Part shown: positions 5,486-11,664 of the stretch, piece after piece
How positions within the stretch are numbered: position 1 is the first letter of the stretch
Layout: the number at the start of each line of letters is the position of its first letter
Assembly (NCBI RefSeq): GCF_000300975.2
Contig: NZ_AEEC02000029.1
Coordinates: forward strand, 1-64,000
Reading direction: 5' to 3'
DNA: 64,000 nucleotides
Origin: Herbaspirillum frisingense GSF30
Lineage (GTDB): Bacteria; Pseudomonadota; Gammaproteobacteria; Burkholderiales; Burkholderiaceae_D
Made by a program: the position numbers and the translations under genes
Notes under the pieces: model-generated
What the model was told of the DNA's origin: nothing
Seen by the model: the letters and a program-made list of their open reading frames with translations, nothing else
Database searches by the model: none

Positions 5486-5562
5486 AGGCGCGTAGCTCAG
5501 CTGGTTAGAGCACTACCTTGACATGGTAGGGGTCGTTGGTTCGAGTCCAATCGTGCCTACCA
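5486..5562 (+). tRNA. tRNA-Val(GAC), copy 1
   Basis: 77 bases with CCA encoded. The acceptor AGGCGCG pairs with CGTGCCT, with one G-U. The anticodon arm is CTACC-TTGACAT-GGTAG, giving anticodon GAC. The T loop is TTCGAGT. It reads GUC and GUU codons. Confidence 0.96.
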
Positions 5563-5664: not shown

Positions 5665-5741
5665 AGGCGCGTAGCTCAGCTGGTTAGAGCACTACCTTGA
5701 CATGGTAGGGGTCGTTGGTTCGAGTCCAATCGTGCCTACCA
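5665..5741 (+). tRNA. tRNA-Val(GAC), copy 2
   Basis: The 77 bases are identical to copy 1 as far as I can compare them by eye. Its own promoter is not obvious in the short gap after the first terminator, so expression may rely on read-through or on a weak local promoter. Confidence 0.96.
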
Positions 5742-6831: not shown

Positions 6832-6840
6832 TGCTATAAT
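6832..6840 (+). promoter_or_regulatory. Extended -10 promoter of the thrS operon
   Basis: TGC-TATAAT forms an extended -10 box. The -35 region is weak (TGTCGA at 17 bases). Transcription would start near 6847 and give a leader of about 260 bases before thrS, long enough for the leader peptide and terminator described below. Confidence 0.65.
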
Positions 6841-6929
6841 AGCTAGCTACGGTCGAGGTCACCTGTCAGTGGCGGCCTCCCGAATATCGATTCATTCCAA
6901 TCTGTAAGAGCGAGAAAGGCAATCCGGTT

Positions 6930-6971
6930 ATGACACCGCGAACTACCACCGAGGTTTTCACGCGACGCTAG
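6930..6971 (+). CDS. Threonine-rich leader peptide upstream of thrS
   Basis: A 13-codon ORF reads MTPRTTTEVFTRR and then TAG. Five of thirteen codons are Thr (positions 2, 5, 6, 7 and 11), three of them consecutive. A GAGAAAGG Shine-Dalgarno lies about 10 bases upstream. It sits between the operon promoter and an intrinsic terminator that begins 22 bases after its stop. This is the architecture of ribosome-mediated attenuation: low charged tRNA-Thr would stall the ribosome on the Thr codons, change leader folding and allow read-through into threonyl-tRNA synthetase. The ORF, its codons and the terminator are seen directly; the mechanism is inferred by analogy with thr, phe and his leaders. 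Confidence 0.7.
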   Translation: MTPRTTTEVFTRR

Positions 6972-6993
6972 TCGGGTTCTTTTTCGTCCTTTG

Positions 6994-7022
6994 AAAAAGC
7001 GCGGCTGGTCCGCGTTTTTTTT
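6994..7022 (+). terminator. Leader terminator (attenuator) before thrS
   Basis: CGCGG (7000-7004) pairs with CCGCG (7010-7014) around a five-base loop. The flanking AAAAAG run can pair with the following eight Ts. Upstream sequences could compete: CTTTTTC at 6979 with GAAAAAG at 6993, and CCGCG at 6936, inside the leader ORF, with CGCGG at 7000. Which alternative fold is used cannot be settled by eye. Confidence 0.8.
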
Positions 7023-7106
7023 CGTCCGTCTTTTCGCCATTTTCCTTGGCGACCCTCTTTTACCCTCAATAGGCAAGGCAGTCACGCTGCCGACATGGAG
7101 TGCACA

Positions 7107-9014
7107 ATGGTTTCAGTTCGTCTTCCCGATGGTTCGCAACGCCAGTTCGACAACCCGGTCACGGTGGCGCAGGTCGCCGCCAACATCGGCACCGGTCTGG
7201 CCAAGGCAGCCCTGGCTGGCCGCGTCGATGGCAAGCTGGTCGATACTTCCTACCTGATCGACAAGGATGCCGAGCTGGCCATCATCACCGACAAGGATCC
7301 CGATGGCCTGGAGGTGATCCGGCACTCCACCGCCCACTTGCTGGCATACGCGGTCAAGGAGTTGTTCCCGGACGCCCAGGTCACCATCGGCCCGGTCATC
7401 GACAACGGTTTCTACTACGACTTCTCGTACAAGCGCCCCTTCACTCCGGAAGACCTGCAGGCCATCGAAAAGAAGATGGCGGAGCTGGCCAAGAAGGATG
7501 AGCCGGTGACCCGCAAGGTGTTGCCGCGCGACGAGGCAGTGGCCTATTTCAAGTCCATCGGCGAAGCCTACAAGGCCGAGATCATCGCTTCCATTCCGCA
7601 GAACGAGGATGTCTCGCTCTACACCGAGGGTAGCTTCACCGACCTGTGCCGTGGTCCGCACGTGCCTTCCACCGGCAAGCTCAAGGTATTCAAGCTGATG
7701 AAGCTGGCCGGTGCCTACTGGCGCGGGGACTCCAACAACGAGATGCTGCAGCGGGTCTATGGCACCGCCTGGGCCAAGAAGGAAGACCAGGAGGCCTACC
7801 TGCACATGCTGGAAGAGGCGGAAAAGCGCGATCACCGCAAGCTGGGCCGTGCGCTGGACCTGTTCCACTTCCAGGATGAGGCGCCGGGCCTGATCTTCTG
7901 GCATCCCAAGGGCTGGACCATCTGGCAGCAGGTCGAGCAATACATGCGTCGCGTCTACCAGGACAACGGCTATCAGGAAGTGAAGGCGCCGCAGATCCTG
8001 GATCGCTCGCTGTGGGAAAAGACTGGTCACTGGGAAAACTATCGTGAAAACATGTTCACGACCGAGTCGGAAAACCGAGCCTACGCGCTCAAGCCGATGA
8101 ACTGCCCGGGCCACATCCAGATCTTCAACTCCGGTCTGCACAGCTATCGCGACCTGCCGCTGCGCTACGGCGAATTCGGCCAGTGCCATCGCAACGAGCC
8201 CTCGGGCGCGCTGCACGGGATGATGCGCGTGCGCGGCTTCACCCAGGACGATGGTCACATCTTCTGTACCGAAGACCAGATCCAGGAGGAAGTGGCTGCC
8301 TTCAACCGCGTGGTGCGCGAAGTCTACGATTGCTTCGGTTTCAAGGAAGTGGCGGTGAAGCTTGCCCTGCGCCCGGAAAAGCGCATTGGTGCCGAGGAAG
8401 TCTGGGACAAGGCCGAGAACGCCCTGCGCGAAGCCATCCGTGCCTCCGGTTCGGAGTGGGAAGAGCTGCCGGGTGAGGGCGCTTTCTATGGTCCCAAGAT
8501 CGAATACCACCTGAAGGACTCCATCGGTCGCTCCTGGCAATGCGGCACCATGCAGGTGGACTTCTCCATGCCGGCCCGCCTGGGCGCCGAGTATGTCACT
8601 GAAGACAACAACCGCAAGGTGCCAGTGATGTTGCACCGGGCCATCGTCGGTTCGCTGGAGCGTTTCATCGCCATCCTGATCGAAAACCACGCCGGCGCAA
8701 TGCCTTTGTGGCTGGCGCCAACACAAGTTGTCATCCTGAATATTTCCGACGCGCAAGCGGATTATGTGCAAAACGTTGCACAAACGCTGAAAAAACAAGG
8801 GTTTAGGGTCGAGACCGATTTGCGCAACGAAAAGATTACCTATAAAATACGGCAGCATTCTATTCAGAAGCCGCCCTATATCCTGGTTGTCGGCGATAAG
8901 GAACGGGATGCAAACACTGTGGCCGTGCGTGCGCGGGGCAATGTCGATCTGGGCGTCATGTCCATCGACACCTTGGTGGAGCGCCTCAAGGATGAGGTTG
9001 CCGCCAAAGCCTGA
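7107..9014 (+). CDS. thrS: Threonyl-tRNA synthetase
   Basis: A 635-residue class II synthetase that charges tRNA-Thr. It has an N-terminal TGS domain (1-62), the editing domain with HSTAH (His73, His77) and CRGPH, the class II core with motif 2 region PMNCPGH and motif 3 near [12 protein letters not shown], and an anticodon-binding domain at the C-terminus. An ATG 12 bases upstream is in frame, but the ATG at 7107 has GGAG six bases before it and gives the usual [10 protein letters not shown] start. It is the first structural gene of the operon continuing into infC 73 bases later. It is preceded by the Thr-rich leader and terminator. Confidence 0.97.
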
Positions 9015-9087
9015 GTCGGGGAAGCCTAGGGCTTCCTCCCAGCGCAAGAGCACGGCTTAATTTATTGGATTTTAAAAGGAAACTGCA

Positions 9088-9609
9088 ATAGCTACTGACA
9101 AGTCGCATCGCCTCAACCGCGAGATCACTGCGCCGGAAGTACGCCTTTCGGGTGTTGAAAACGAGCCTCTGGGCATCGTCAGCCTGGCTGAAGCCTTACG
9201 TCTTTCCGAAGAGGCCGAAGTCGATCTGGTCGAGATTGCGCCGACCGCGCAACCTCCCGTCTGCCGCCTGATGGACTACGGCAAGTTCAAGTACCAGGAG
9301 CAGAAGAAGGCGCATGAGGCCAAGCTCAAGCAGAAGGTCATCCAGGTCAAGGAAGTCAAGTTCCGCCCGGGTACCGATGATGGCGATTACAACATCAAGC
9401 TGCGCAACCTCACCAAGTTCCTGGAAGACGGTGACAAGACCAAGATCACCCTGCGTTTCCGCGGTCGTGAAATGGCTCACCAGGAAATCGGCATGCGTGT
9501 GCTGGAGCGTCTGAAGGCAGACCTGGAACCTTACGGCCAGGTCGAGCAGTTTCCCAAGATGGAAGGCCGCCAGATGATCATGGTGCTGGCGCCGAAGAAA
9601 AAGAAGTAA
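9088..9609 (+). CDS. infC: Translation initiation factor IF-3, non-AUG start
   Basis: A 173-residue IF-3, which dissociates ribosomal subunits and checks start-codon pairing. The N-domain runs from [11 protein letters not shown] to about 80, then the linker ([13 protein letters not shown]), then the C-domain ending [17 protein letters not shown]. The only start that gives a full-length protein with a Shine-Dalgarno (AAAAGGA, seven-base spacing) is ATA at 9088; an in-frame TAA lies 13 bases before it. The first ATG in frame, at 9271, would delete the N-domain. Rare AUU/AUC/AUA starts on infC are known and let IF-3 repress its own translation. Automatic annotation may truncate this gene. Confidence 0.93.
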
Positions 9610-9860
9610 ATCTTTTTCTGTTGTTCAGTTTCAAGCAGTTAGCCGTATCAGGACGACATCTCTCCGGTGTCGTCCATGCCGCGAAAGCCGCGGCAGCGTA
9701 GGGCCGACAAAGGATTTGCAGGGCGCAGGCGACTGCGCCGGGCAAAAGCAGCGGGATTACCCGCTGTCAAATAAGTGAGAGCAGGCATCAAAGAGCAGCG
9801 AGTATTTGCTGCCACCTGCAATCATCAAAAAATGGAGCTGTCCGGAAGGACAGAGTTGCT
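9610..9860 (+). promoter_or_regulatory. Structured infC-rpmI spacer, candidate L20-type operator
   Basis: About 250 bases without a gene but dense in inverted repeats: GACGACA...TGTCGTC near 9652, GCCGCG...CGCGGC near 9680, GGCGCA...TGCGCC near 9721, CAGCGGG...CCCGCTG near 9751, and GTCC...GGAC just before rpmI. In E. coli the ribosomal protein L20 binds a folded leader here and represses rpmI-rplT translation. A similar role is inferred from position and structure only. Confidence 0.45.
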
Positions 9861-10058
9861 ATGCCTAAGATGAAATCGAAGAGCAGCGCGAAGAAACGTT
9901 TTCGCGTGCGCCCGGGCGGTACCGTCAAGCGCGGTCAAGCCTTCAAGCGTCACATCCTGACCAAGAAGACCACCAAGAACAAGCGTCAACTGCGCGGTAC
10001 CGAGGGCGTCCATGAGACGAACCTGAATTCCGTTCGCGCAATGCTGCCGTTCGCTTAA
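9861..10058 (+). CDS. rpmI: 50S ribosomal protein L35
   Basis: 65 residues, highly basic, starting [14 protein letters not shown] as is typical of bL35. It has a Lys/Arg-rich middle ([19 protein letters not shown]) and the conserved Gly/Lys N-terminal module. It sits in the standard infC-rpmI-rplT order, 25 bases before rplT. Confidence 0.97.
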
Positions 10059-10083
10059 CCTCACCATACACTAAGGAGCTACT

Positions 10084-10446
10084 ATGCCTAGAGTCAAACG
10101 TGGGGTAACAGCACGTGCCCGCCACAAGAAAGTCCTCGCACTCGCCAAGGGTTACCGCGGCCGTCGCAAAAACGTCTACCGTATCGCCAAGCAAGCAGTC
10201 ATGCGCGCTGGTCAGTACGCGTACCGTGACCGTCGTAACAAGAAGCGCGTGTTCCGCGCACTGTGGATCGCCCGTATCAACGCCGCTGCGCGTTCGCACG
10301 GCGTGACCTACAGCGTGTTCATGAACGGCCTGAAGAAGGCTGCGATCGAACTGGATCGTAAGGTCCTGGCCGATATGGCTGTCACCGACAAGGCTGCATT
10401 TGCTGCCATCGTCAACCAGGTGAAGGCCAACATCGCTGCCGCCTAA
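10084..10446 (+). CDS. rplT: 50S ribosomal protein L20
   Basis: 120 residues starting [18 protein letters not shown], with the long basic N-terminal extension ([18 protein letters not shown]) that threads into 23S rRNA, and a globular C-domain (about 60-120). It is needed for early 50S assembly. AAGGAG lies at a good distance before the ATG. By analogy with other bacteria it may repress its own operon by binding the leader before rpmI. Confidence 0.97.
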
Positions 10447-10545
10447 ATCGACAGCGCATGTGCGGTAGCCGGCCGCAACATCCACGACGCAAGTCAGACG
10501 AGCAGCCGGCGCTGCAAAATCCTGCGGGGCAGAGGTGTCACACCG

Positions 10546-10635
10546 ATGCCCCGTATGTTTTTGATCCACGGTTTCGTGGATTTTTTTCCTTTTCGACTTC
10601 GTCGTCGGATTTTCGATTGGAGCGAGACTTACCGC
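10546..10635 (+). other. Phe-rich in-frame leader segment of pheS
   Basis: An ATG at 10546 with a good GAGGTG site eight bases upstream opens a 30-codon stretch that runs into pheS without a stop. Six codons are Phe (5, 10, 13, 14, 16 and 23), and the stretch overlaps the terminator at 10564. A ribosome stalled at Phe codon 5 (10558-10560) would cover the rising arm of the hairpin and could prevent termination. The E. coli pheST operon has a separate Phe leader peptide (pheM) at the same place. Part of the Phe content simply reflects the T-run of the terminator, so the case is suggestive, not proven. Confidence 0.4.
10564..10587 (+). terminator. Terminator/attenuator between rplT and pheS
   Basis: ATCCACG pairs perfectly with CGTGGAT around GTTT and is followed by six Ts. 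It would separate the ribosomal protein genes from pheST unless read-through is regulated. Confidence 0.85.
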
Positions 10636-11664
10636 ATGAATCCCCTAGACCAACTCCTGGGCCAACTGGTCACGCAGGCGCAGGCTGATTTCGCCGCCGC
10701 GCCGGACGCCGCCGCACTGGAAAACGCCAAGGCCAAGTACCTCGGCAAGACCGGCCAGATCACCGAGCAGATGAAGGGGCTGGGCAAGCTGGCGCCGGAA
10801 GAGCGCAAGGTACAAGGGGCGATCATCAACGTCGCCAAGGAACAGATCGAAAACGCACTGACCGCACGCCGCGATGCTCTGGCCAATGCCCAGATGCAGG
10901 CGCGCCTGAATGCGGAAGCCATCGACGTCACCCTGCCTGGTCGTGGTCGCGGCGTGGGTGGTATCCATCCGGTGATGCGCTCCTGGCAGCGCGTCGAGGA
11001 AATCTTCCGTTCCATCGGCTTCGATGTCGCCGACGGTCCCGAGATCGAGACCGACTGGACCAATTTCACCGCATTGAACAGCCCCGAAAATCACCCGGCG
11101 CGCTCGATGCAGGACACCTTCTACATCGAAGGTCACGATACCCAGGGCAAGCCCCTGCTGCTGCGTACCCACACCAGCCCGATGCAGGTGCGCTACGCCC
11201 GCATGAACAAGCCGCCCATCAAGGTCATTGCCCCGGGCCGCACCTACCGCGTGGACAGCGATGCCACGCACTCGCCGATGTTCCACCAGGTCGAAGGCCT
11301 GTGGATCGCCGAGGACATCAGCTTCGCCGACTTGAAGGGCGTCTACCTCAACTTCGTCAAGGCCTTCTTCGAGACCGACGACCTGCAGGTGCGCTTCCGT
11401 CCTTCCTATTTCCCTTTTACCGAACCCTCGGCCGAGATCGACATCGCCTTCGGCAGCGGCCCCCTCAAGGGGCGCTGGCTGGAAGTCTCCGGTGCCGGCC
11501 AGGTGCATCCCACCGTGGTGCGCAACATGGGGCTGGACCCCGAGCAGTACATCGGTTTCGCGTTCGGCTCCGGCCTTGAGCGCCTGACCATGCTGCGCTA
11601 TGGCATCAATGACCTGCGCCTGTTCTACGAAGGCGACCTGCGCTTCCTGAAGCAATTCAATTAA
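10636..11664 (+). CDS. pheS: Phenylalanyl-tRNA synthetase alpha subunit
   Basis: A 342-residue alpha subunit of the (alpha-beta)2 class II enzyme. An N-terminal coiled coil (1-100) is followed by the catalytic core with motif 1 ([14 protein letters not shown]), motif 2 ([13 protein letters not shown], then [21 protein letters not shown]) and motif 3 near the C-terminus ([18 protein letters not shown]). The start [11 protein letters not shown] has GGAGCGAG nine bases upstream and gives the normal family length. Starting at 10546 would add 30 unrelated residues. Confidence 0.95.

Follow-up and report, generated by a model that had tools for sequence, protein, structure and literature searches.

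A putative ribosome-mediated attenuator with a threonine-rich leader peptide upstream of thrS in Betaproteobacteria

Organization of the region upstream of thrS

The region analysed here, referred to as the window, is a 64,000-nt stretch of contig NZ_AEEC02000029.1 of Herbaspirillum frisingense GSF30, and all coordinates given below are window positions on the + strand. The gene for threonyl-tRNA synthetase, thrS, occupies positions 7107–9014 (+); 7107 is a likelier start than 7095, and a GGAG motif lies at 7097–7100. Among the named loci described below, the closest thrS comes from a MAG of Herbaspirillum frisingense, at 96% identity over the best-matching segment. Two identical tRNA-Val(GAC) genes (5486–5562 and 5665–5741) stand ~1.2 kb above the leader discussed here, with an ORF in between that we take to be response-regulator-like. 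Closer to thrS, an extended -10 element, TGCTATAAT (6832–6840, +), is identical in the window and in loci L003, L004 and L083, where the flanks differ, and was not seen in L084. The element is absent from the output of a consensus promoter scan, whose sole promoter-like match falls at 7258–7285, inside thrS. The window's leader is probably driven by this promoter of its own, and we infer a transcript start at ~6847.

Downstream of the element lies a short ORF (6930–6971, +) with the codons ATG ACA CCG CGA ACT ACC ACC GAG GTT TTC ACG CGA CGC TAG, which reads MTPRTTTEVFTRR and contains five threonines in total, including a run of three (Thr codons at 6933–6935, 6942–6950 and 6960–6962). Its Shine-Dalgarno region, GAGCGAGAAAGG (6908–6919, +), is conserved and ends 10 nt before the ATG, a spacing that is long yet conserved, with the motif AGAAAGG kept. 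The leader stop codon is separated from the thrS start by 135 nt, and an intrinsic terminator (6994–7022, +) begins 22 nt past this stop, leaving about 85 nt to thrS. The terminator consists of an A-tract, a stem (7000–7004/7010–7014) with an A:U extension, a loop and a run of eight T (7015–7022), and the hairpin including the A:U extension has a predicted folding energy of -12.6 kcal/mol. A consensus terminator scan gave no + strand site at 6994–7022 and only a reverse one at 7014–7000; the hairpin and its eight T are plain by eye. The initial annotation had described a 13-codon ORF with five Thr codons, three of them consecutive, its own Shine-Dalgarno sequence and a stop, followed 22 bases later by a terminator ahead of thrS, and the sequence agrees with it in every one of these details. 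A second + strand terminator-like hairpin (7034–7052, six pairs and a T-rich tail) is found between this terminator and thrS.

The Thr-rich leader ORF is beyond chance. An ATG ORF of 7–20 codons containing at least five Thr, a consecutive triplet among them, did not arise in any of 5000 dinucleotide shuffles of 6848–7106, while at least three Thr within five residues appeared in 9 of the 5000. Across both strands of the 64 kb, two ATG ORFs carry at least five Thr including such a triplet, namely the leader ORF and MDTTTICARPICTSWPTP. The leader uses the rare Thr codons ACA and ACT, which account for 5 and 10 of the 135 Thr codons in seven window genes, at positions 2 and 5.

Distribution and coding character of the leader

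Related loci were searched with a strict rule, namely an ATG ORF of 7–25 codons, no more than 300 nt from thrS, in which some stretch of five residues holds three or more Thr. The named set comprises 81 loci, the window plus the best 80 of 590 confirmed matches, so that close relatives prevail. For the order-wide set, 80 genomes were hand-picked for family spread; 296 genomes gave a match, and the choice was made among the matches listed, which stop short of the weakest. The 29 order-wide loci closest in thrS (L083–L111) were counted apart as a further order set. For the class, 29 loci (L192–L220) and 60 regions cover 89 of 138 matching genomes, including one (G048) from the window's own order.

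A Thr-cluster ORF precedes thrS in 56/81 named loci and in 26/80 order-wide genomes, the latter spread over 12 of 35 families, and shuffles of the 80 order-wide loci yielded a mean of 0.8 such ORFs and a maximum of 3 in 50 rounds; the enrichment of Thr codons in related genomes that the initial annotation had anticipated is thus present. Within L083–L111 the count was 15/29, one being a read-through frame of tRNA-Val. By the same cluster rule the next residue was Val (17/81 named, 9/80 order-wide), the Val-rich ORFs inspected being mostly the tRNA-Val gene read as protein, and Thr alone of the 20 residues was strongly enriched. The strict rule found no Thr ORF in 25/81 named and 54/80 order-wide loci, Polynucleobacter loci among them. 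On these counts and the class-wide count below, the leader is a feature of Betaproteobacteria, which we take to be the order Burkholderiales in the GTDB sense, but not of all of them. In six Polynucleobacter loci (L042, L043, L047, L048, L050 and L051) and the Burkholderiaceae MAG L045, the order of elements is tRNA-Val, a GC hairpin with a T-run, and thrS, with no Thr ORF, and the leader seems to have been lost or never gained there.

Where the ORF is present, a terminator between the leader stop and thrS accompanies it in 56/56 named and 25/26 order-wide leaders; since the last 220 nt contain a terminator in 64/81 named and 65/80 order-wide loci overall, terminator presence by itself is weak evidence. 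A 21-base core of the leader matched 218/294 genomes of the window's family, with no match for the reversed control, and thrS adjoins the match in all four of the core-match loci given (L283–L286). Across the class, the strict rule retrieved 3/89 (L238, L249 and L262). The match in L249 reads through tRNA-Val and that in L262 sits directly in front of a tRNA gene, so that L238 alone looks like a leader. This locus, from a gammaproteobacterium outside the order, encodes MSTTTAQR* followed by a hairpin with a T-rich tail before thrS, and is possibly an independent or borrowed case.

Codon counts were made on 51 of 56 leaders, those with CGA as codon 4; the 56 leaders retrieved by the pattern rule and the 56 retrieved by the strict rule are one locus apart each way (L067, L052). 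Synonymous turnover is seen at codons 5 and 6. The latter is ACC in 10, ACT in 16, ACA in 11, ACG in 11 and another codon in 3 leaders, so that Thr is encoded in 48/51, and on the thrS DNA tree the changes at bases 1, 2 and 3 number 0, 0 and 6 for codon 5 and 3, 2 and 16 for codon 6. Codon 8, with 24 changes on the same tree, varies freely. The frame from the ATG to a conserved TA(G/A) is kept in 47/48 placeable leaders. In Oxalobacteraceae the peptide start MTPRT is conserved, and the peptides of other families, MFRTTTTTGK, MNTNTTRTTTTRHT, MTPRTLTETTSERR, MFFPLARTTTRNFRPMSR, MRPPTTLQGKTR and MRPPTT..., keep their threonines; the leader is too divergent between families for a single covariance model. 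Comparison of thrS upstream regions across Burkholderiales, as the initial annotation had proposed, came out in its favour: in many families a terminator and a small ORF with a Thr codon cluster persist before thrS while the other residues of the peptide change. These patterns indicate that the leader ORF is a coding element and that selection has kept its Thr codon cluster.

Elsewhere in the genome, upstream of the homoserine dehydrogenase gene hom, another open frame ends ~75 bases before the likely start and a short ORF, MRTRRSFSSTTKTI, overlaps it; the hom upstream region showed no leader that would leave space for a terminator.

Pairing segments and ribosome position

Three segments between the end of the leader ORF and the terminator loop can form an alternative structure. 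Segment 2a, GCUAGUCG (6967–6974, +), overlaps the leader stop codon and forms the 5' side of the antiterminator by pairing with 7002–7009, while segment 2b, CUUUUUCG (6979–6986, +), forms an inner helix with 6992–6999; the 3' side, segment 3 (6992–7009, +), also supplies the terminator with its 5' arm and loop. From the leader end to the terminator loop, the two helices together fold at -18.4 kcal/mol, versus -12.6 kcal/mol for the terminator alone. In the fold of the naked leader, the Shine-Dalgarno region instead pairs with CUUUUUCGUC, as the 5' side of a helix with segment 2, and the terminator is formed (the classical 1:2 plus 3:4 state).

Conservation of these helices was assessed in alignment A1, which holds 48 of the 56 leaders (without L039, L062, L066, L067, L071, L076, L081 and L082) and in which the Shine-Dalgarno region is likewise conserved. 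The terminator is paired in 96.3% of cells, the outer antiterminator helix in 91.1%, the 1:2 helix (Shine-Dalgarno region with segment 2) in 78.9% and the inner antiterminator helix in 74.4%. All 31 double-change cells fall in the inner helix, with 2/500 shuffles as high, and no pair of the outer helix has changed on both sides. Three covariation measures did not exceed the shuffles of A1 (445/500 for double-change pairs, 500/500 for pair types and 99/500 for the covariation score). When the partner is slid by 1–3 columns, pairing falls to 39–48%, a comparison to be read with the fact that the structure derives from one of the aligned sequences. In other families the arms have different sequences that are still complementary, for instance UCGAGG to CCUCGA (L076 and f30 leaders) and GUCGCGUU to AACGCGGC (loci of Bordetella and similar ones). 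In Janthinobacterium-like leaders with an earlier stop, GCUAGUCG is retained and is there non-coding.

Beyond these relatives, the order-wide counts of complementarity, own versus foreign arms, ribosome states and tRNA-Val linkage use 37 leaders that satisfy a looser rule and have a terminator; five artefacts (L155, L165, L169, L172 and L174) were dropped from the looser-rule set, in which L140, L160 and L168 are without a terminator. Complementarity is above the shuffle mean in 29 of the 37 (mean z -0.81, 6/37 at p <=0.05; sign test 0.0004, if the leaders are independent), and the 55 named leaders have a mean z of -1.72, with 26 at p <=0.05. When whole stretches were compared, segments paired better with their own arm than with arms from foreign families: 805 of 20000 permutations did as well with one genome per family, as did 21 and 53 of 5000 in two random draws. 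The top-scoring partner was the own one in no more than 1 to 3 of 18 families. The pooled tests (1/20000; 0/5000) mix close relatives and are not usable as probabilities. A comparison by 11 groups was not significant, 92832 of 400001 permutations doing as well; there the permutations were truncated in order and the stretch taken for segment 2 fell short in one group. Together, alignment and folding lend moderate support to an antiterminator pairing that would be exclusive with the terminator. L039, left out of the complementarity and own-versus-foreign-arm tests, has ~80 extra bases between leader and terminator (a gap of 117 nt, against 32–33 in L041 and L077), and this insertion is possibly a natural disruption of the switch.

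The position of the ribosome was modelled with a footprint extending 12 nt downstream of the first A-site nucleotide, and three footprints were tried. A ribosome at codons 5–7 leaves 6967–6974 free, whereas one at the stop codon covers it. If the RNA 5' of the ribosome is ignored, the predicted terminator probability in the window is 0.00 at codons 5–7 and 0.97–1.00 at the stop, and stalling increases sequestration of the terminator 5' arm in 49/56 named and 29/37 order-wide leaders (and decreases it in 3 and 1, respectively). If pairing across the ribosome is allowed, at equilibrium, CUUUUUCGUC is captured by the Shine-Dalgarno region and the terminator is the favoured structure at codons 5–7, with a probability of 0.69–1.00 over the three footprints (0.71, 0.93 and 0.97 at codons 5, 6 and 7 with the 12-nt footprint). 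Under this condition, codon 2 is the one Thr codon that favours antitermination (terminator 0.06–0.42). With the ribosome halted at codon 11, also Thr, termination is predicted (1.00). The mean final terminator probability, stalled versus at the stop, hardly changes order-wide (0.93 versus 0.96) and is 0.79 versus 0.97 among named leaders.

Kinetic trapping may answer this equilibrium objection in part: before the 3' arm is made, the modelled 5' arm is sequestered at 0.66–0.79 with the ribosome at codons 5–7. The answer is partial because the arm is sequestered at the stop as well, at 0.64 without and 0.32 with pairing across the ribosome. In these models the switch is well supported under one usual simplification and not at full equilibrium, which is the main weakness of the attenuator reading.

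Attenuation of thrS, alternative explanations and genomic context

We consider it about 85% probable, on the grounds of sequence and modelling, that the leader controls thrS by ribosome-mediated transcription attenuation. RNA polymerase would transcribe the leader while a ribosome translates MTPRTTT.... When charged Thr-tRNA is available, the ribosome would reach the stop codon and mask segment 2, the terminator would form, and transcription would end ahead of thrS. When it is scarce, the ribosome would halt on codons 5–7, perhaps on codon 2 too, so that segment 2 stays available for pairing with the terminator's 5' arm, and the resulting antitermination would carry transcription into thrS and probably infC-rpmI-rplT. 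In this manner thrS would probably be switched on when threonine-loaded tRNA is short.

A tRNA-Val(GAC) gene lies upstream of the leader in 67 of 92 loci (45/55 named and 22/37 order-wide), with a median gap of 44 nt among named and 27.5 nt among order-wide leaders. A terminator falls within this gap in just 1 of the 67 (named 1, order-wide 0), and where tRNA-Val precedes the leader the attenuator terminator presumably ends the tRNA transcript as well. We give even odds to a broader reading, in which the terminator of the tRNA-Val unit is a Thr-dependent gate in most Betaproteobacteria with the leader, and thrS-infC-rpmI-rplT would be expressed as conditional read-through of the tRNA transcript; the window's lineage would then have its leader apart from tRNA-Val, under a promoter of its own.

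The same linkage could be read more simply, with the terminator merely ending the upstream transcript, of tRNA-Val or otherwise, the Thr ORF being incidental and the thrS promoter lying below the terminator. Both the presence of tRNA-Val(GAC) in most loci and the frequency of terminators before thrS without a Thr ORF are in keeping with it, but an incidental ORF would not be expected to keep its Thr codons under synonymous turnover, nor Thr to be the one strongly enriched residue, and the ~85 nt between terminator and thrS offer little room for a promoter, the sole promoter-like match being internal to thrS; we hold this explanation to be highly improbable. Slightly less improbable, though still very unlikely, is a leader that senses ThrRS or acts through RNA structure, with the nearly invariant GGUUAUGACACCGCGAACUAC as a binding site and the peptide secondary. 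The 21-nt pattern is indeed widespread in the family while its reversed control is not found, and codons 1 and 4 are unchanged in 51 leaders, which says little given that the leaders were chosen for an ATG and for CGA as codon 4. Outside the family, however, GGUUAUGACACCGCGAACUAC dissolves into peptides such as MFRTTTTTGK, MNTNTTRTTTTRHT and MRPPTT..., with the Thr codons kept, no Rfam family matches the leader, and its invariance can be explained by base-pairing with segment 2.

A coding leader might also act by translational coupling or nascent-peptide arrest rather than by sensing Thr-tRNA, and in this way govern the terminator or the translation of thrS. The conserved MTPRT start in Oxalobacteraceae would suit such a mechanism, but the peptide past the Thr cluster is kept neither among relatives, as the turnover at codon 8 illustrates, nor across families, and the 135 nt from leader stop to thrS start in the window speak against coupling, which makes this the least probable of the alternatives, at a few chances in a hundred.

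In E. coli, the trp, thr, his, ilv and pheST systems are peptide-leader attenuators of amino acid or aminoacyl-tRNA synthetase operons. As far as can be judged from sequence features that can be tested, the window leader resembles them, with a short ORF rich in the codon for the product's amino acid, an antiterminator overlapping segment 3, an intrinsic terminator and the gene directly downstream; it differs in that the target is thrS, the host group is Betaproteobacteria and the leader lies mostly behind a tRNA-Val gene. The E. coli thrS operator has the same target gene but is not known to involve a leader peptide or a terminator, and there ThrRS binds the mRNA and blocks translation.

In Bacillota, thrS carries tandem T-boxes (PMC12452182), which likewise sense Thr-tRNA charging before thrS, whereas T-box RNA reads the tRNA directly and no T-box match is found in the window. 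Rfam, including the threonine operon leader and T-box families, gave no leader match at the gathering score, and up to E = 5 the only match was asX2, on the other strand, with 15.1 bits versus a gathering score of 70. The main text of Naville and Gautheret 2010 (PMC2965389) mentions threonyl-tRNA synthetase once, for the self-regulation of E. coli ThrRS, and 'thrS' nowhere. The initial annotation knew of no described peptide attenuator for thrS in Betaproteobacteria, and none appears in the titles and abstract openings listed by full-text searches; Lopatovskaya et al. 2010 (Mol Biol 44:128, on aminoacyl-tRNA operons by its title) or Vitreschak et al. 2004 may predict this leader. The idea as such has a precedent outside this group, as a study of Streptomyces lividans TK24 (PMC8079986) proposes a leader peptide, thrL, before thrS, alongside leaders before leuS, trpS and alaS; thrL shares the Thr-containing peptide ahead of thrS and has two Thr, compared to five in the window leader.

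If the attenuator reading is true, it would add a third way for thrS to sense its own product, beside protein-mRNA feedback in E. coli and T-boxes in Bacillota, and would bring a housekeeping enzyme under peptide-leader attenuation across a large part of an order. The linkage to tRNA-Val is its unusual side, since one tRNA gene would be gated by the charging of another tRNA. Natural variants, with four Thr codons used or with altered arms, form a good set in which to test how codons and pairing set read-through.

The initial annotation had suggested that the regulation could reach downstream to infC, rpmI, rplT, pheST and ihfA. In a scan of 8950–10700, no + strand terminator-like site was found up to the end of rplT (10446), and the thrS operon probably also makes IF3, L35 and L20. 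Between rplT and pheS, the same scan returned three terminator-like hairpins on the + strand (10534–10609), the best of which is GATCCACG-GTTT-CGTGGATT (10563–10582) with a T-rich tail, so that pheST and ihfA would not necessarily be affected; visual inspection showed no Phe-rich leader ORF ahead of the best hairpin. Within the operon, infC seems to start at ATA (window position 9088). Among the retrieved loci that fit the start pattern, the window's locus included, 45 have ATA and 22 have ATC at this position, and infC of E. coli likewise starts at a rare codon, AUU.
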